Assembly: GCA_032158125.1 (NCBI GenBank)
Contig: JASKOT010000001.1
Coordinates: 1,178,001-1,242,000, forward strand
DNA: 64,000 nucleotides
Direction of reading: 5' to 3'
Source: Papiliotrema nemorosa
Taxonomy: Eukaryota > Basidiomycota > Tremellomycetes > Tremellales > Rhynchogastremaceae
Each line of letters begins with the position of its first letter. The stretch's first letter is position 1. A program made the translations under genes and the position numbers. The notes beneath the pieces are model-generated. The model ran no database searches and was not told where the DNA came from. It saw only the letters and a list, made by a program, of their open reading frames with translations. Positions 2,213-23,362 of this stretch are shown here, one piece after another.

Positions 2213-5200
2213 CTAAGCACCCAGGACAAGCGTCAACAAAGCCATTCGGACCTGATTCATCAGTTTCTGCCCCTCAACACCGCGTGATCATACTCACAAA
2301 GAGACCATATCGCATTTGTCGGAAGTACGCCGCCCTCCTCGAGTCAAAGTCGACCTCTGGGTCAATCTCGTTGACTCGAGGCAAGGGGTGCATGACAATA
2401 GCACTCTCCTTGGCCTTGGCAAGGACATCATTGTTGATGATGAACATATCCTTGACAGCTTCGTACTCTGCAATGTTGTCAAATCGCTCCTTCTGCACTC
2501 GAGTGACGTAAAGAACGTCAGAGTCGGCGATGGCCTCTTCGAGGTTGGTGTGTTCCGAGAATTTGACACCGGCTCGAGACACTTCCGCTTTGACGGAATC
2601 GGGCATAGTGAGCGACGGGGGAGAGACGAATCTGAGGGTGACATCGTAGAGCGAGAGGATCTTGACCAAAGAGTGGACCGTTCGGCCGTTCTTCAAGTCA
2701 CCAACTGTTATATTAGCAGACACTCGAGCGATTAGCCCTGGAATACTCACTCAAGGTCACGGTGATACCGTTGACCGAACCCAACTCCTCTCGGATACAG
2801 AAGACATCCAACAAGCTCTGTGTGGGGTGCTCTCCGATTCCATCACCAGCATTGATGATCGGGACAGGACTCGATTTCGCCGCGTTCTTGCTGCTTCCGA
2901 CCGCTGGATGCCTCAACACGACGGCATCAGAGTAGCATCCGACGGTTCGAATGGTATCGGCAAGCGATTCGCCTTTGACGACCGACGAGGTGGACGCGGT
3001 GACTTGGACCACTTCACCTCCACATCGCTTCATGGCAGCCTCAAACGAAGTCGATGTCCTTGTGCTGGGCTCGTAGAAGAGGGTACACAGGACTCGTCCC
3101 TTGAGCGTATCGACCGATCCAGTCTTCTCGACTTGAGCTCGCATCTCCGAGGCCAAGTTGAACAAGACGTGCAGGTCATCTCGAGTAAACTGCTTGACGC
3201 TGAGAATGTGTCGTCGAGAGAAGGCGGCGTGGTGCTGCAGTGAGACGAGCGATCGAATTGGCGATTGTTCTCGAGGAGCCACAGAAAGGGACATCAAGTT
3301 GTCTTGAGCCTGGGCAAACGACTGAGAAGCTTGTCGATCCAATCCAGGCGACATGGGGACCAAAGAGGGTCGATGTTGCAGGGAGAAGGATTGTCGTGAG
3401 GTTCCTTGTCGAGGTCCCGAAATGGTGACATCTCGACCGAGGGGAAGTGTGAAGTTTTGACCATCGAGGAAGACACTGTGACCGTTGATGACCACTCGGT
3501 GGACACCACCAGAGACAATCTTGCCGCCGAGGGGCGACCAGCCATCGGTAGAGAAGGTCGATTGTCGGTTGACCTCGACCTCGACGTAGGTCTGAGATTG
3601 CTGAGACAGACCAAAGATGGATCGAGGGTTCTCGCTGAGTCGGAGCGCAATGTCCTCCAAGGTAAGTTTACCCTGAGCGACCGCAGTGAGCAAAAGAGGC
3701 AACGACTCTTCGACACCCGTCTTGGCCGAGACCGCATGTCCAAGGGCTTGGCCGACCTGGTAAGGCAAGACACCGACAGTGAAAATGTCGATCGTGGCCA
3801 AGTTGTCCCAAAGGGCTTGTTGATCCTCAGCGGTGGGCAAGCACTGAACAGCGTAGTCGGCCTGCGAGAAGAACAAGGCATAGATGGCAACATCGCAAGT
3901 GACAGCCAATCCTTTGCCCTTAGCGAGACCGATCAAGAGGATATCGTCCTTGGTCGAGACACCGGTAATGTGGATGCTTCGGTTGTTCAAGCTGGCGAGC
4001 AACAGGATCGAAGCAAGATCGGTGGCACGGGCGTCGGTGATGATGGGCTTGTCTGCGGGCCATGCAGCAAAGTGTTGAGCGATGCTGGTGACCTTGTTAG
4101 AAGAGCCAAAGAAGTTGTTGAAGGGGATGAACAAGGCCTTGGCTCCCGCAGTGAGAGCATCAGCAAGTCGCGACGCATTATCGGCAGTAGCAGCGACCGA
4201 GAAGAGGTAGTCGCAATTGGCGTGACCCGAAGCGTTGGACTGAGCTCGCTGGAGCGAGATCTCGTCCTCAACGGCAGAGGTGATACCCTGAGGCATCATA
4301 CTGACAACAGTGAAGCCACCTCGAACAGCCGCTTGTGTCGCCTCGGCAAAGTCGGGCGATCCGCTCTCGGCGGCACCAGGCACAAAGCTTTGAAGCGAGA
4401 TGAGACCGGGGAATGAGAAGGTCTCGTGCGAGGTCTTGAAGTCGACGCTGGAAATGTCGAAAGTGGGCTTTCGAATGATAGCCTCAATGAACAACTTGGC
4501 GCACTTGACATTGGTGATCAATGGCACGGCAAAGTCGACAGCCATTCGTCGAGACTTGTAACCTTGCGAGATGTAGCTGGCAGGTCGTCGGAATCGGTTC
4601 TTGGACGGCAAGTTGATGTACAAGTCGATCAAGTTGTTGGCCAAGTGTTGCGACAACGAATATTCAGCCTTTTGCGGGTTCGACTCGTCGTCTGCACCCA
4701 AGTTTTCGACGTACTTGACGGGGATACCGTGTTCTTGGATGAAATCGGCAGTACCGGAGGTAGCGAAGAGGTTGTACCCCATTTTGTGGAGCTTGTGCAC
4801 CGAAGGCAGCATCTCGAGCTTCTCCTTGAATGAACCGATCGACAAGAGAATGTTCTTCTTGGGCGGTCGGATTCCGGTCGAGATGAGAGCCTTGAGGTAG
4901 GCATCGTATCGGTCTTTACCGAAACAAGCGACCTCCCCAGTCGAGGCCATCTCGACACCGAGAATTGGGTCGGCTCCGGAGAGTCGAGAGAAGGAGAACT
5001 GGGGTACCTTGACACCAACATAGTTGGAAGGAAGCTTGCTCTCGGGGTAAGGAGTGACTGGGAATCCGAGCATGACCTTGGTTGCGAGCTCGATGGCATC
5101 GATACCGGTGACCTTGGAGACGAAGGGGAAAGATCGGGCAGCTCGCAAGTTGCACTCGATGACCTTGATCTCGTTGTTCTTGGCGATGAACTGGATGTTG

Positions 5201-8200
5201 TAAGGTCCAGTAACGTTGAGTGCCTGACCAATCTTCTGGGTAGCGACCTCGATCTTTCGAATAGTCTCCGGGTCGAGATCTTGAGGAGGAAGGATGAGGG
5301 TGGCATCACCAGAGTGCACACCGGCATTCTCGACGTGCTCCGAGATGTAGTGCATGACCATCTTTCCATCCCGAGCGACAGCGTCCATCTCAATCTCCTT
5401 GGCCTCCTCAATATACTTGGAAATGACGACGGGATGATCTCGCGAGACATTGGTAGCTTGGGTGAGATAGTTTTCCAGGTCGTCCTGAGATGCAACGACG
5501 TTCATGGCGGCACCCGAAAGGACGTAAGAGGGTCGAACCAACACGGGGTATCCGACCTTGGTACAGAAAGCCTCGGCCTCAGCAAACGAGGTGAGCTCTT
5601 TCCAGAGCGGTTGATCCACACCAATCTTGTCCAACATTCGAGAAAACTTGTATCGGTTCTCGGCAGTGTCAATCATCTCGGGCGAAGTACCGTAAATCTT
5701 GACATTCTGTCGGTGCAAGTCGAGCGCAATGTTGTTGGGGGTTTGACCACCCATGGAAAGGACAACACCAGCTGATCGTTCGAGATCGTAGATATCGAGG
5801 ACAGTCTCGAGGGAGATGTTCTCAAAGTAGAGCTTGTCGGCCTCATCGTAATCGGTCGAAACGGTTTCAGGGTTGTAGTTGATCATGACCGTCTTGAGAC
5901 CGTTCTCTCGCAGAGTACGGATGGCTCGGACAGCACACCAATCGAATTCGACCGAAGATCCGATTCGGTACACACCGGAACCGAGGACCATGACACCATT
6001 GTCTTCGAATGACACGTCGTTCTCGCTGGCATTGTAGGTGGTGTAAAGGTAGTTGGTGAACGCAGGGAACTCGGCAGCGACGGTATCAATCTGCTTGACG
6101 AAGGGGGTGATGCCAGCTTCGACTCGAAGTCGTCGCACAGCGAGCTCATTCGAGTTGAGCATCTTGGCGATTTGTCGATCCGAGAAACCGATCTGTTTGG
6201 CATTTCGGATCAACTGCGAGGGAACGCTAGTAGCGGTATATTTCCTGTCTGTGAGCGGAGAACGCATCACGCGGCGCGGCTTAACTCACGAGACAATGTC
6301 TTCAGTCTTTGACAGTCGCTCCAATCGGCTCAAGAACCACTTGTCTATGTTGGACATTTCGTTGATCTTGTCAACCGAGTATCCCCGCTTGAAAGCCCTA
6401 GCGATGGCAAACAATCGCTGGTCGGTAGGGTTGGCGATCTCGTAATCGATATCGTCGATCTTGATGTTCGGGTTGTCCGAGAAACCGGGGAAGGTGTCGT
6501 CGATACATCGGATAGCCTTTTGGATAGTTTCCTCAAAGGTTCGACCGATAGCCATAACTTCTCCGACCGACTTCATCGAACTGCTCAAAGCGGTGCTGAC
6601 TCGGTTGAACTTCTTAAGATCCCATCGAGGGATCTTGACGACACAGTAGTCGAGCGACGGCTCGAAACAGGCCGAAGTGAGCTTGGTCACCGAGTTTCGA
6701 ATCTCGTTCAAGGGGATGTTGAGACCAAGCTTGGCAGCGATAAAGGCCAAGGGGTACCCAGTGGCCTTGGAAGCGAGAGCGGACGATCGAGAGAGACGAG
6801 CGTTGACCTCGATGATGCAGTACTCTTTGGAGAATGGGTTGAGAGCATACTGGATGTTACACTCTCCAATGACACCGAGATGACGGATGACATTGACAGC
6901 AGTCGTTCGGAGCATGTTGTAGTCGGCATCCGAGAGGGTCTGCGAAGGGGCAACGACGATGGAGTCTCCGGTATGAATACCGAGAGGATCAAAGTTCTAC
7001 TCATCAGTCAAAGCCGAGCAGGATTTTGGACAACTCACCTCCATGTTACAGACCGTGATACAGTTGTTTCGGCAATCTCGAACAACCTCGTACTCGATCT
7101 CCTTCCATCCCTTCATACTCTTCTCAACCAAAACCTGGGGAGAAATGGCGAAAGCCTTGCTACAGAGGTCGCTGAGTTGCTCCTCGTTTTTGGCGAAACC
7201 GGATCCCAGACCACCGAGAGCAAAGGCAGCTCGGACAATGACAGGGAACCCAATCTTGGTGGCAGCTTGCAAGGCCTCCTCAAAGTTGGTGGCCGTAGCA
7301 GATTCGGCGCACTTTTCGCCAATCTCCTCCATGGCTCGAGCGAACATTTCTCGATCTTCGGTGGTGATGATGGTTTCGATGGGAGTACCGAGAACCTTGA
7401 CGCCGAGCTTGGCAAACTCATCCTTGAGCTTGATACCGACACTCAAGGCGGTCTGACCACCGAAAGTACAGTAGATACCGTCAGGTTTCTCGTGCTTGAT
7501 GATCTTGAGCACAAAGTCTGGAGTGACGGGCAGGAAGTAGACCTTGTCGGCCAGACCCTTGGACGTTTGGATGGTGGCAATGTTTGGATTGACCAGGATG
7601 GTATAGATACCTTCCTCCTTGAGAGCCTTGATAGCCTGAGATCCAGAATAGTCGAATTCTCCGGCTTGACCAATAGAAAGACCACCGGATCCGAGAACAA
7701 GAACCTTTTTGGCATTCTCTCGAGGTCGAGCAGCAATGTTGGCAGAGAGCTCTCCGCCCGGAATGTCGATGGAGATGAGTCGACCTTCTCGAGCAGAGTC
7801 GATCATGCTTTGAATGAAGACATCGAACAAGAACTCGGTGTCTCTAGGTCCGGGTGCGGACTCTGGGTGGAATTGGACCGAGAAGTAAGGCTTGCCGTTC
7901 TTGCCGGTCCAGATACCCTCGTTACTGTTGTCATTGGCGTTGGTGAACAAGGGCTCCCAACCATTCTTGAGGGTGGAGACGTCGACCTCGTAACCATGGT
8001 TTTGCGAGGTGATGTAACATCGACCGGAAGTGGCACAAGTGCAGGGCAAGTTCATACCACGGTTTCCGTACTTCATTTTTCGGGTCGAAGCGCCCGAGGC
8101 AAGGGCGAGCAGCTGGTGACCGAGACAGATACCAAAGACCGGAGTCTTGCCGATTTCCAGAGCTTTGCTGAGGTTGGCGATGGTTTCTTTGACCATGGAT

Positions 8201-18449: not shown

Positions 18450-19016
18450 TTACCGCACGGTCACCTCTGAGCTCCATGTTGGAGCTGTCATGAGGGATGG
18501 AAATCCCCGCTTCTCCATCTGACGCAAAACCGCAGAAAGAGCAGTAATCACTTGAGAAGTCTGAGACTGTCTCCCTGTATCTCCATACTTCTCTACATTC
18601 ACTGACCATTCTGTCGATTCACCTTCTTCGTGTCCCGGAGGAACATACGTCCCCCATTTCCCTGCCCAGAGACTTTCTCCCAGACAGTGCATTGCGTGCC
18701 GTTTGATAGATCCAGCAGGAAGAGTATCTCTCCAAGACTCGATCAAATCATGAGGACATCCCAGAGACACCATACCATATTTGACAGTATGTCCTCGACT
18801 CAGAGTCATCAGCTCGGAGCGGGTGGCACACTTTGACATGGCGGGGAGGTACTCGAAGAAAAATCGCTCAGCAACTTCCTGATCTGTCCCGAGATCTTTG
18901 CGCATGGTGGCGGGGTCGACAAAAGTCGTCTTAAGGTGTTTGCTCAAAGAGGCAGGGGAGAATTGGGTGGGGACGACTGTAAACTTAGTCATGTCAGTCG
19001 CTTGCTTGTCGTCCAT
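18450..19016 (-). CDS. Family A small protein 1 (unrecognised)
   Basis: Single-exon gene of 188 codons, or 180 if the second ATG (MTKFTVV) is the start, which aligns better with its paralogue. There is no signal peptide, membrane helix or known motif. It is a full-length paralogue of the gene at 22711-23259. Shared blocks are PT(Q/K)F(S/T)P(A/S)SLS near the start, a G..Q..AE.FF..(Y/F)LPA(M/I)S.C block, an HD.(I/M).SW....(A/P)GS..RHA.H.L block, and a C-terminal helix (TALSAVLRQMEK against HASMCGLLRGLE). The stop faces that of MOT1 convergently, with 128 bp between them. Function is unknown. Conservation of every block over a diverged background suggests selection on a real protein. Confidence 0.7.
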   Translation of the reverse strand: MDDKQATDMTKFTVVPTQFSPASLSKHLKTTFVDPATMRKDLGTDQEVAERFFFEYLPAMSKCATRSELMTLSRGHTVKYGMVSLGCPHDLIESWRDTLPAGSIKRHAMHCLGESLWAGKWGTYVPPGHEEGESTEWSVNVEKYGDTGRQSQTSQVITALSAVLRQMEKRGFPSLMTAPTWSSEVTVR

Positions 19017-19788
19017 GTTGTTGACGATGAGAGAGTTAGACGTTGTACTGTACCGGCGGAGGCTGCAGGGGATATGTTGAGTGTATGGATAATGAACCTA
19101 TGACGCCTGAGTGAACACAGGCAGTAATTGCTTATGTCGCTGAGGGAGCAAGTTTGGAAAGGAAGGGTGAGCTCTTCGAAAGGAGGCGAGACGTTGAAAC
19201 ATGTCCGATGCAACGGGAGATAAGTCGGTCTCGGCTGTGCGTCAGTCAATTGGCGGCTTTGATAGAGACACTTCTTCAGCTGATCGTGTATGGCTTCGCC
19301 TGGACCCGGCGTCCGTCCACCGGTCCAGATCTCTCGTTCTACGCCTTGAGCCGATTTGATCATTCGGCAGTCGCCACGTCGACATGGTAAAACAGCTTTA
19401 TCCAGCCGTCACTCTCGCAAGCCTTGATTCTTTGGTGCTCAAGTGGAGAATACCCACTCCTGGAGCAACACTATATAATACAGTGTGAATGCCAGTCTGG
19501 GTTGTGGTTTATTCAGCAGTCTTTCTGCTATCCAGACGTGTTCATGACGGGGTAGTCCTTTCCTGTAGGTGTACAGACAAGCAGAGCACATCATCTTCGG
19601 ATAGGCCTGGTCAATGTCTTGTTGATCACACCATCGATTCACTATAAGGAATTTTTATTTGCGAACTGGGAGGCCAAAGCGAGTCTCATCTTTTAAACAC
19701 CTTCGAATACCTGGCCCAGACCTCCATTGGCTGACAACGAGCACAATGCATACTAGCCTCCTTCAACCAGCTTCCAGGGTACGGCTAA
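19017..19788. other. Intergenic region upstream of family A gene 1
   Basis: No supported gene; two minus-strand open frames of 60-125 codons lack any recognisable feature. An AT-rich TATA-like element (CTATATAATACAG, plus strand) lies at about 19470-19482, roughly 450 bp upstream of the family A ATG. Confidence 0.45.
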
Positions 19789-20312
19789 TTACCAAGCTGT
19801 CTCTGCCTCGGGAACGCCCCATCCTCGTTTGTGAAAGTTTCGCAGAAAGTCCTCCTTGCCTTCCGCGGTCAAAGTCGCAAGGGACGCATCCGATGGAACA
19901 ATTGGCTCTCTGATGGTGTAGACTGTGCCATCTTCCAAGGTGACCTGTGATTGAGGGTGGGACTCGACGTACTGCATCAGTTGACAGGCAATGCCGAGGC
20001 TGTTGGCCTCCTCGGAGCATCGGGGTGCAAGTCCTTGCCACAAATTGAGATCAGCAGATGAGACGGGCGCGGGTGGAGATCGACTTTGAAGGGAATACAT
20101 ACGCGAGACCCAACCATCCATGTTGTCCGGGGATGCATCTGACAGTGACACTGCCATCCTGTTGAACGCTCGCAAGACTTTATCATTGGCAACTGGCGGC
20201 ACGCACGTGGTGAGGCTGCCATTCTGGAAAGCCCACTTGAGGGCGGCGACGCTCTGGTCTGAAGGTTGAGAAGGTTGGGTGGTGTTGTGTTGGTGGTGGT
20301 AGTCGCTGGCAT
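19789..20312 (-). pseudogene. Family B small protein 2, apparently frameshifted near its start
   Basis: The body (19789 to about 20275) is a paralogue of the gene at 21419-21913. They share ALKWA near the start, a central LGI..QL..(Y/L)V.S block, and L.DGT.Y.I..P towards the end. The coding frame of that body has no ATG upstream. The only ATG between the TATA box (20429-20436) and the body is at 20310-20312, and it is out of frame by one missing base. From that ATG the reading MPATTTTNTT runs through an ACC/ACA repeat tract and then needs one extra nucleotide to enter QPSQPSDQSVAALKWAFQ. No GT donor lies in the gap, so a simple intron cannot rescue it. It could be a recent pseudogene, a slippage-type frameshift in the repeat, or a sequencing error. 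The protein ends GWGVPEAETAW. Confidence 0.55.
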
Positions 20313-21418
20313 GGTAGCTTGTGGTAGTTTGAGAGGTCAGGGGTATCTCTGGTTAGAGTGGTTAGTGATAAAGTACTCGTGTGGATGGGAGTATGAATGT
20401 AATGGCAGTCCGAACTTTTTCAAAAGGGTTTATATACGAGTAGCCCAGAGTACAGCAGTGACGGTCCGGGTTCTCCCGAGAATTCTGGAGTCATCTTTTG
20501 TTCGAAGTCCTGAGCTATTGCCTGGCGGTGGGAAAAGACACATCAAACGCGTCAAGTCTGAAGTGAACCTTTCTTGTGGCCATCTTCCAGGGTTGTCGAT
20601 CAGTGCCTTTTGCTTCGCAAGGCTCACACGATCCCACAGCGCCCCGGAGACCAGGACGATTTCCCAAACAGAGCAGGTTATATGGCGGCAACGCTTGACA
20701 CCGAGCCCTATCCTTTCAGCTTGTCGTCCCTCATGGGAGCGTGATCGGCGGGAAGCTCTCACGGACGACCAGTATGGACCAGCCCAATACCTTTCTTCTG
20801 TCTCCCGTGCAAACTGGCAACTGAAATGTATCAAATTGCTACCAACCATTCACATAGCCGTCCCCTGGCTTTACAGTATGCCCGTCTGCTAGACATGTGC
20901 GGCAAACGTCGCCTTCACCAGTCTGGCCACTATGTGACATTACGTACACTTACCCAATTCTTACGCTACTCAAGGATGGGGAATGCCTTCAGAACAGTCG
21001 AAAGAAAGAATCGACCTCGATATTGTAGACCGGACCCGCCTAAGCTTTTCTGAACTCGACCAAGACCCGTACCTCGGGAGCTGACGCGGCGAATGATGGT
21101 CAGGGGACTGAGCGAGGTATTGAAATATTGACTATACAGTATGAGTTGACGCATTGAGAGCCATGCACTGTTCAAAGAATGGATATTGCTGTCACGCTTC
21201 ACTACTTCAGCAAGGCCACTTGACGTTGCCGGCACTGTAGGTCTCTGACTGTTGTGTGCAAGGATTTTCCTTCAAGCCATTGAATGATACAGCATTCAAA
21301 GTATATGTATGTAATCTTCCATCGTCAGGAAACTCCTCGCCACCCGTCACAATCACCTTGCATGTTATGTATAGAAGAAGGTCCCTAGTCCCATCGTCGG
21401 GTTCGCTTACTTCATCTC
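20313..21418. other. Intergenic region between the two family B copies
   Basis: About 1.1 kb. It holds the promoter of the broken B copy and the 3' flank of the intact one. A 139-codon minus-strand frame (20430-20849) overlaps the TATA box, shows no family similarity and is probably chance. I see no repeat linking the two B copies outside their coding parts. Confidence 0.4.
20429..20436 (-). promoter_or_regulatory. TATA box of family B gene 2
   Basis: TATATAAA on the minus strand, 117 bp upstream of the ATG at 20312. No other ATG lies between them, which is part of the case that the 20312 ATG was the original start. Confidence 0.5.
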
Positions 21419-21913
21419 TTATCTGGAGAGTGTGCTTGCCAAGGCGGCTTCCATGCCGACCATCATCTTCTTCAGCTGCGCCAATTGAGTCATGATTTCA
21501 GAAGGGGAGCAAGTCGGAGCCTCGATGGGATATCTAGTACCATCGGGTAAGTTGGCCGTGATGGGTTCAGAAGAGCCTCGCCCGGCTCTCGAGTCCACAA
21601 GCTTATACAGCTGACGGAAAATACCAAGATCGCTGTAAAGTCGGGAAGTCGGCTCTTCGGCGGCTTGCCAGGAACTGATATCATCGGCCCTAATTAAACT
21701 TGACCCCCTTCTCTCAGCATCGAGCACCAGCTGCACGCAGTCGTCGATGGTGCCTGAGGCGGTGAGAGTGCTGTACACTCCCATGGCAATTCCTCGGAAA
21801 GACTTCCATTCAGTAATTGGAGCTTTATAGTATGTGATAAGCTCCGCATCATCGAGCGCCCATTTCAGTGCTTTCACAGTGAGCTCGGGTTGCGTCGCGC
21901 CAGAGGATGACAT
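21419..21913 (-). CDS. Family B small protein 1 (unrecognised)
   Basis: Single exon of 164 codons from the ATG at 21911-21913 (MSSSGATQPELTVKALKWA). It is predicted soluble, without a signal peptide or membrane helix, and ends in a likely amphipathic helix (IMTQLAQLKKMMVGMEAAL). It is a paralogue of the frameshifted copy at 19789-20312 and serves as the reference for the intact N-terminus. A TATA box lies 107 bp upstream. No known domain is recognised. Its neighbours are the other family B copy downstream and family A gene 2 upstream, all on the same strand but each with its own long spacer, so they are not co-transcribed in any obvious way. Confidence 0.68.
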   Translation of the reverse strand: MSSSGATQPELTVKALKWALDDAELITYYKAPITEWKSFRGIAMGVYSTLTASGTIDDCVQLVLDAERRGSSLIRADDISSWQAAEEPTSRLYSDLGIFRQLYKLVDSRAGRGSSEPITANLPDGTRYPIEAPTCSPSEIMTQLAQLKKMMVGMEAALASTLSR

Positions 21914-22710
21914 GATGTGAAGTCAGAAAAGTGTGGTACCGGGAGCTTCAGATAACGTTGAAGTACGGGCAGATTTGGTGTCTGTGTGCGAATGTTGAGC
22001 AGAAGCGGACTGAGCAGGCTTTATAGACTGCCAAACGAGGAGGAATTATGCGCGCCTCTCGAAGATCCTTTCAGTCGTGAAATCCCTTGATCGAAATGTT
22101 CCTGCTCGCATCCGGATTGTGGGAAGAGTTCTCTGTGGTGCGACTAGTCGACTTCATTGAGAACCTTTCATCTCAACCCCTTCGTGTCGATCACGGAAGC
22201 GCGTAGATTCCACCATTCCCACCACTAGTGAATACAACCTTTCAATCTTTGATGGTCGATATATCACATATTCGTGTAGTGCCTAACTTGCGAAAAGGCA
22301 AGGGAAACTTCTCAAAACTAACCTTTCATCAGGCTATCCTCGGCTTATATATGTCGTTCTCATGAGCTTCCCTCTCACAGGTTCCTGGGCCAGAATCGCG
22401 GTCTATTTGCCTCAAACGATGTCAAGTAGCTGGATAAAAGCAAGATGAGAGTCACTCTGGCGCGAGTATGCGAAGGCCAATCAAGGATTTGCGGCGGAGT
22501 GTTCTCAAATTGGTTCTCTTCAAAGGCCTGCTGATCCTCCGGGTCACTGAGTCTGCATGCATCTGAGCGCTGCCATTATCATGTAGGCAACTCCTCGCCA
22601 CCCAGATCGGACCACTATGAATGCAAACACCTTTCCTTCTTCCGTCTGCTATAATCCGGTTGATACCCATAGTGAATCTCCTATCTGACATCTGACAGAT
22701 CCTCGACTAT
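21914..22710. other. Intergenic region between family B gene 1 and family A gene 2
   Basis: About 800 bp with no supported gene. It contains the TATA elements of the downstream B gene and a dyad-like ATGCAT run at about 22555. No sequence repeat shared with the other spacers was evident by eye. Confidence 0.4.
22020..22025 (-). promoter_or_regulatory. TATA box of family B gene 1
   Basis: TATAAA on the minus strand, 107 bp upstream of the ATG at 21913. A further TATA-like string (TTATATATG) lies at about 22345-22353. Confidence 0.45.
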
Positions 22711-23259
22711 CTACATACCATCTGGATCCACGCCCTCGAGGCTCGAAGAGGTTCGAGTCTGTCTCGAGTACTCGAGTCCGCGAAGCAACCCACACATTGA
22801 AGCGTGGAGTATGGAGTCATCAGGCTTCCATATCGTCCCTTGTATATTTTTCGGCTCAAGCTGCCAGTGAGATTCCCCAGACTCCCCGCTGTGTGGATGA
22901 TCTGGGTCAGTCATGATGCCACCTCCTGTGGCCCCTTTGGAAACTTGAGTGAGGGCGTGACAGGCATGTCGAATCTCTGAGCCCGGGGAACAAGACAATT
23001 TCCAGCTCATCAGGGTATCATGGTTGAACGAGGCGTTTACAAGCCCGTCTTCTTGTTTCGGCGGATGGGCGAGGTCTCTGACCTCCTTGTGACCTCTACA
23101 GGCTGAGATTGCTGGTAAGAAGTCATTGAAGAAGCTTTCAGCTTGGGTTTGTTCCACTCCGAAGCGCGATCTCAGGTCCTGGGCAGAAGAGAAAACCCGT
23201 CGACAATAAGCACTGAGAGATGATGGAGTGAATTTGGTTGGCAGCTTGACTGGCGGCAT
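22711..23259 (-). CDS. Family A small protein 2 (unrecognised)
   Basis: Single exon of 182 codons starting MPPVKLPTKFTPSSLSAY. It is a full-length paralogue of the gene at 18450-19016, with conserved blocks spread along both proteins: GVEQTQAESFFNDFLPAI corresponds to GTDQEVAERFFFEYLPAM, and SEIRHACHAL to SIKRHAMHCL. It is predicted soluble, with a helical N-terminal half and a Gly/His/Ser-rich middle (about residues 105-130). No domain is recognised. A TATATATAT element lies 95 bp upstream. The pair brackets the two family B copies, giving an A-B-B-A order on one strand. Confidence 0.7.
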   Translation of the reverse strand: MPPVKLPTKFTPSSLSAYCRRVFSSAQDLRSRFGVEQTQAESFFNDFLPAISACRGHKEVRDLAHPPKQEDGLVNASFNHDTLMSWKLSCSPGSEIRHACHALTQVSKGATGGGIMTDPDHPHSGESGESHWQLEPKNIQGTIWKPDDSILHASMCGLLRGLEYSRQTRTSSSLEGVDPDGM

Positions 23260-23353: not shown

Positions 23354-23362
23354 TATATATAT
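23354..23362 (-). promoter_or_regulatory. TATA box of family A gene 2
   Basis: TATATATAT lies 95 bp upstream of the ATG at 23259. It matches in type and spacing the elements before the two family B copies. Confidence 0.5.

Follow-up and report, generated by a model that had tools for sequence, protein, structure and literature searches.

What kind of genes make up the small intronless island beside MOT1 in the basidiomycete Papiliotrema nemorosa? We analysed a 64,000-nucleotide stretch of contig JASKOT010000001.1 (assembly GCA_032158125.1, positions 1,178,001 to 1,242,000 of the forward strand), hereafter the window, in which four frames of two types, A and B, lie on the minus strand. Positions of the island are those within the window. 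Along the direction of transcription, the island comprises A2 (23259-22711, 182 amino acids, P0001), B2 (21913-21419, 164 amino acids, P0002), B1 (20352-19789, 187 codons from stop to stop, homologous to B2) and A1 (19016-18450, 188 amino acids, P0005). A third B-type gene, B3 (162 amino acids, intronless), is located about 160 kb from the island, at 1359771-1360259 on the plus strand in the coordinates of contig C1. We propose, at a probability of about one half for the reading as a whole, that the island represents one regulated family of small proteins arranged in tandem, with five members in the genome. Most likely, the family was duplicated locally and is possibly restricted to a lineage; its proteins would be small, soluble and helical, and some of its genes have TATA promoters. 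We regard the frames as mostly real genes, with sequences undescribed in what was searched; their kind, tandem orphan genes, is an ordinary one.

The evidence for paralogy and for coding capacity is firm. In searches of the whole genome (19.2 Mb), A1 and A2 retrieved each other at E values of 1.4e-16 and 1.1e-16, with 55 of 175 aligned residues identical (31%), and B2 and B3 retrieved each other at 5.6e-12 and 3.3e-12 with 30% identity. B2 and B1 were likewise linked, at E 2.0e-4 and 1.6e-4 and with 43 of 153 aligned residues identical, and both paralogous pairs that the original prediction had drawn from the window, an A pair (18450-19016 and 22711-23259) and a B pair, were recovered in this way. 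Identities at the first, second and third codon positions were 0.40, 0.54 and 0.27 for A2-A1, 0.44, 0.53 and 0.30 for B2-B3, 0.48, 0.53 and 0.31 for B2-B1, and 0.37, 0.50 and 0.28 for B3-B1, so that the pattern of purifying selection on the protein was present in four paralogue pairs. Third positions are close to random and second positions are not, indicating that the A and B proteins are constrained. Such strong divergence between paralogues also means that this is either an old family, which related species would then be expected to share, or one that evolves very rapidly. Moreover, codon-usage scores trained on long neighbouring frames placed the gene's own frame at the top of the six frames in all five genes, with a very small margin for A2 (0.008 versus -0.006). 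This small margin and the want of a usable start in B1 would fit an explanation in which the frames are chance open frames rather than genes. Against it stand the E values of 1e-16 and 5e-12 between paralogues and the distribution of identities over codon positions in the four pairs, and we consider it extremely improbable. A further six frames of 84-208 amino acids, which lie within the spacers or overlap them, have codon-usage scores (-0.245 to -0.073) comparable to the background derived from these spacers (mean -0.154, standard deviation 0.042, largest -0.076), and we therefore did not count them as genes.

Using A1, A2, B1, B2, B3 and two consensus sequences as queries, we identified two A and three B genes in the genome, B3 being absent from the original prediction. 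These whole-genome searches ignore introns and score the best candidates only, and therefore relatives split by introns could be missed. A permissive hidden Markov model search of 276.9 kb, covering the window and the parts of contig C1 around B3, identified no further single-exon copy. A B3-like match on another contig, C38 (E 0.047, with one internal stop), was judged to be due to chance, and the B consensus query did not recover it. According to PMC8022950, introns are present in 99.5% of 6795 coding genes in the Cryptococcus reference annotations, which would make a run of intronless genes unusual, on the assumption that this genome resembles those.

The island had been described as four single-exon minus-strand genes. 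A1, A2 and B2 indeed form complete frames from ATG to stop, but B1, given as 19789-20312, is not a gene in that form. This span measures 524 bases, which is no multiple of three, and the ATG at 20312 opens a frame other than the conserved B frame and ends after 111 codons. The B1 frame carrying ALKWA...DGT.Y.I contains no stop between 20352 and 19789; upstream, the first stop is met at 20355, and between this stop and the conserved part there is no in-frame ATG, which is why B1 is probably broken or mis-assembled. We also inspected by eye whether an intron could supply the start: a plausible acceptor is found at about 20349, but there is no ATG between the TATA box and this acceptor, and the intron was rejected. 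The database record P0004, whose contig measures 185,767 bases compared with 1,484,123 for the one analysed, starts the B1 protein at an internal methionine, which fits the same break in that record, though the underlying reads may be shared. B1 is thus probably a pseudogene, a product of mis-assembly or a gene whose start codon is not AUG.

The original prediction recognised no family in these proteins and described a locally duplicated, intronless island, and our searches of the genome and of domain and structure libraries support both statements. No match of the A or B proteins reached the cut-off in Pfam or NCBIfam, the best PHROGs match (E 0.075) did not rise above chance, a sequence search of PDB gave no match of note, and no clear structural match was found. 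In a large protein database, whose fungal coverage carried no positive control, only this genome's own proteins matched. Literature searching with the letters of a 3′ element described below gave no match. Neither these proteins nor the 3′ element is described in the available passages of PMC11185503, PMC8022950 and PMC11302930, and those of the first, which compares Cryptococcus with Kwoniella genomes, make no mention of such genes.

Two likenesses to known families were considered. B1 matched Pfam FlbD (PF06289) at E 0.0054 in a 30-residue segment centred on the hairpin region EDGT-x-Y-x-I, with scores of 16.7 and 16.3 bits that fall short of the curated 24.7-bit cut-off, while B2 and B3 gave no match. 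We rejected this identity as almost certainly chance, because the score is below the cut-off, the two sister proteins are unmatched and the family is named for bacterial flagella. Structural alignment with VIA-align listed globin-like helical cores, at scores which the note accompanying the tool describes as common for helical models. The globin-like match leaves the hairpin and the C-terminal helix of the family outside. A heme-binding histidine is defining for the globin fold, and no conserved one is present in the family, B2 containing no histidine at all. The genes of the island also resemble the taxonomically restricted, or orphan, tandem gene families, which are a recognised kind in fungi: they are likewise small, divergent, locally duplicated and without a known domain. 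They differ in that no named family in the libraries searched shares their sequences, in having five members only, and in being intronless.

Intronless frames next to neighbours that appear to have introns, together with the failure to find a fungal relative in searches of uncontrolled fungal coverage, could also point to a viral, bacterial or mobile-element origin of the frames, by capture or domestication. However, neither viral contigs nor prokaryote genomes and contigs yielded relatives, PHROGs offered none above chance, and the B model, the only one used, found no viral structure at E ≤ 0.001. The frames also contain 51-56% G+C, like the 52% of the window. We therefore regard capture as highly improbable.

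The A and B products are proteins of 17.9-21.0 kDa with isoelectric points of 4.9-6.6, and no membrane segment was identified in them, no 19-residue stretch exceeding 0.89 on the Kyte-Doolittle scale. AlphaFold models of A and B, built separately, placed helices, hairpin and C-terminal helix in identical order; the predicted fold has five or six core helices together with a beta-hairpin, which reads L-x-DGT-x-Y-x-I in B1 and B2, and the C-terminal helix. The products are thus most likely small, soluble and helical, with no membrane segments. The best ungapped block between A and B was [IVL]-x-[SL]-W-x7-S, which ranked first of 7020 twelve-residue windows and was equalled in 5 of 200 column shuffles. 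This W-x7-S block is present in all five proteins, and its tryptophan falls in the corresponding predicted helix of both models. In addition, a structure-weighted alignment of A and B at weight 2 was matched by none of 24 circular permutations and none of 100 within-class shuffles.

A further link between the two types was found downstream of the genes. A 19-base element follows A2 (22585..22603, minus strand), and a copy identical at 18 of the 19 bases follows B2 (21327..21345, minus strand). Its 18-base core, GGTGGCGAGGAGTTNCCT, has exact matches in the 19.2 Mb genome only at A2 and B2, on the coding strand about 110 bases past the A2 stop and about 75 bases past the B2 stop. With up to two mismatches allowed, one more place was found, which lies on the contig that holds A2 and B2; a control with the pattern reversed gave one match. 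The 3′ flanks of A2 and B2 aligned better than all of 200 shuffles. Given that third codon positions are near random, this nearly unchanged element is hardly a neutral remnant of the split between A and B, and is either constrained or was copied later.

Upstream, TATA boxes were found at A2 (23355..23361, minus strand, 102 bases before the ATG), B2 (22019..22025, minus strand, 112 bases before the ATG) and B1 (20430..20436, minus strand, 124 bases ahead of the ATG at 20312, which is out of frame). Three of the five genes therefore carry a TATA box within 150 bases of an ATG, compared with 2.7% of random 150-base stretches. The promoters of B1 and B2 align TATA on TATA, with one of 200 shuffles as good. 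In Cryptococcus neoformans, 14.5% of transcription start site clusters are linked to TATA-box genes, which are more prone to regulation (PMC11302930). Among the 7-mers of the B promoters, TGAAAGG showed the strongest enrichment, and 7 of 300 random sets were as extreme. Upstream of B2 the coding strand has four GAAAGG motifs (22067..22327, minus strand), and upstream of B1 it has three (20568..20795, minus strand), both being weak evidence for a control site. One TGAAAGG is also found upstream of B3, adjoining the B3 TATA box.

Several results weigh against the reading of one regulated family. The alignment of A with B by hhalign gave a probability of 0.3%, plain profile alignment gave z values of 0.5-1.4, and neither indicated a relation. 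The structure-weighted alignment was equalled by 8 of 24 permutations and 1 of 100 shuffles at weight 1, and by 5 of 24 and 12 of 100 at weight 0, and the W-x7-S block had been spotted by eye before being tested. The models themselves are of low-to-middling confidence, with a mean predicted local distance difference test score of 73.4 for B, whose five models ranged from 39.4 to 73.4, and of 63.3 for A. Among the C-terminal helices of A1, A2, B2 and B3, that of B3 is clearly amphipathic (3 of 1000 shuffles as good) and those of A1, A2 and B2 are not (84, 263 and 158 of 1000). On the regulatory side, no TATA box lies within 150 bases of A1 or B3, the nearest being at 461 and 252 bases, respectively. 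Across all five promoters TGAAAGG shows weak enrichment, 21 of 300 random sets being equally extreme, and the flank tests comprised 20 comparisons, four more of which reached 4 or 5 of 200. The predicted RNA fold of the 3′ element was no better than that of shuffled sequence.

The profile results, and the failure of the structure-weighted test against permutations at weights 0 and 1, favour a rival explanation in which two unrelated small-protein families, each duplicated, became interleaved, the common block and helix order being chance and the 3′ element copied later. Consistently, searches of the own genome with A never retrieved the B genes, and those with B never retrieved A. The original prediction had also read the island as two families in an A-B-B-A order; the lack of a profile relation between A and B speaks for that part, whereas the W-x7-S block, the common order of predicted elements and the 3′ core weaken it. 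Against the rival stand the same three observations: few shuffles equalled the ungapped block, its tryptophan sits in the same predicted helix, and the exact 3′ core occurs only at A2 and B2. We hold the two-family explanation to be a serious contender that falls somewhat short of an even chance, and we lean towards A and B being one family. Given the block, the element order and the 3′ element of A2 and B2, tandem duplication of one gene would suffice, and one intronless ancestor would probably have split early into the A and B branches.

How might such a family work? As a tandem array of one regulated family, each of the genes would be switched on by a promoter of its own, which in at least three cases has a TATA box, and may be inducible; the 3′ element common to A2 and B2 may couple the expression of these two genes. 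The A and B proteins would then act as condition-induced protein-interaction factors and not as enzymes, a function that we put forward tentatively and consider rather doubtful. Subunits could be joined through the C-terminal helix, yet with only the B3 helix clearly amphipathic, the case for such oligomerisation is weak. B1 would probably be a decayed member.

Divergence rapid enough to saturate third codon positions, intronless tandem copies and a broken B1 would also be expected of a conflict locus, that is, a killer-type meiotic driver or a self/non-self module of small, quickly evolving proteins with partners, placed between housekeeping genes, with B1 decayed. Known fungal drivers resemble the island in pattern only. 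The proteins match no described family and have no membrane segment, and B3 stands alone, with no A gene in the region searched, all of which make a conflict locus very unlikely. A bolder combination, in which A and B are branches of an undescribed helical family and obligate partners with expression matched by the 3′ element, forming a self/non-self or killer-type module beside MOT1, is in our view scarcely probable.

The surroundings of the family were examined as well. The neighbour labelled MOT1 in the original prediction bore out this label: it carries SNF2, Helicase_C and DUF3535 domains (Pfam) and matches PDB chains at E 2e-102, the best being 7zb5 and 7z8s, which we take to be Mot1. 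The label of the other neighbour, an aminopeptidase, was not confirmed, as Pfam returned no family for two tested frames of this putative gene. B3 adjoins a TUP1-like gene with Tup_N and WD40 domains. Both the MOT1 beside the island and the TUP1-like gene beside B3 are global transcription regulators, which is probably a coincidence. Elsewhere in the window, a frame of 1190 codons (2713-6285, minus strand) appears by eye to be of the CAD/URA2 type (carbamoyl-phosphate synthase plus aspartate transcarbamylase).

If the proposed reading is true, a protein family without described relatives would be added to the stock of orphan genes of a fungus, with paralogues divergent enough for modelling. 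The island would also provide a test case for the rise and decay of tandem orphan families, and the 3′ element, exact only after A2 and B2, would be a candidate for paired post-transcriptional control.

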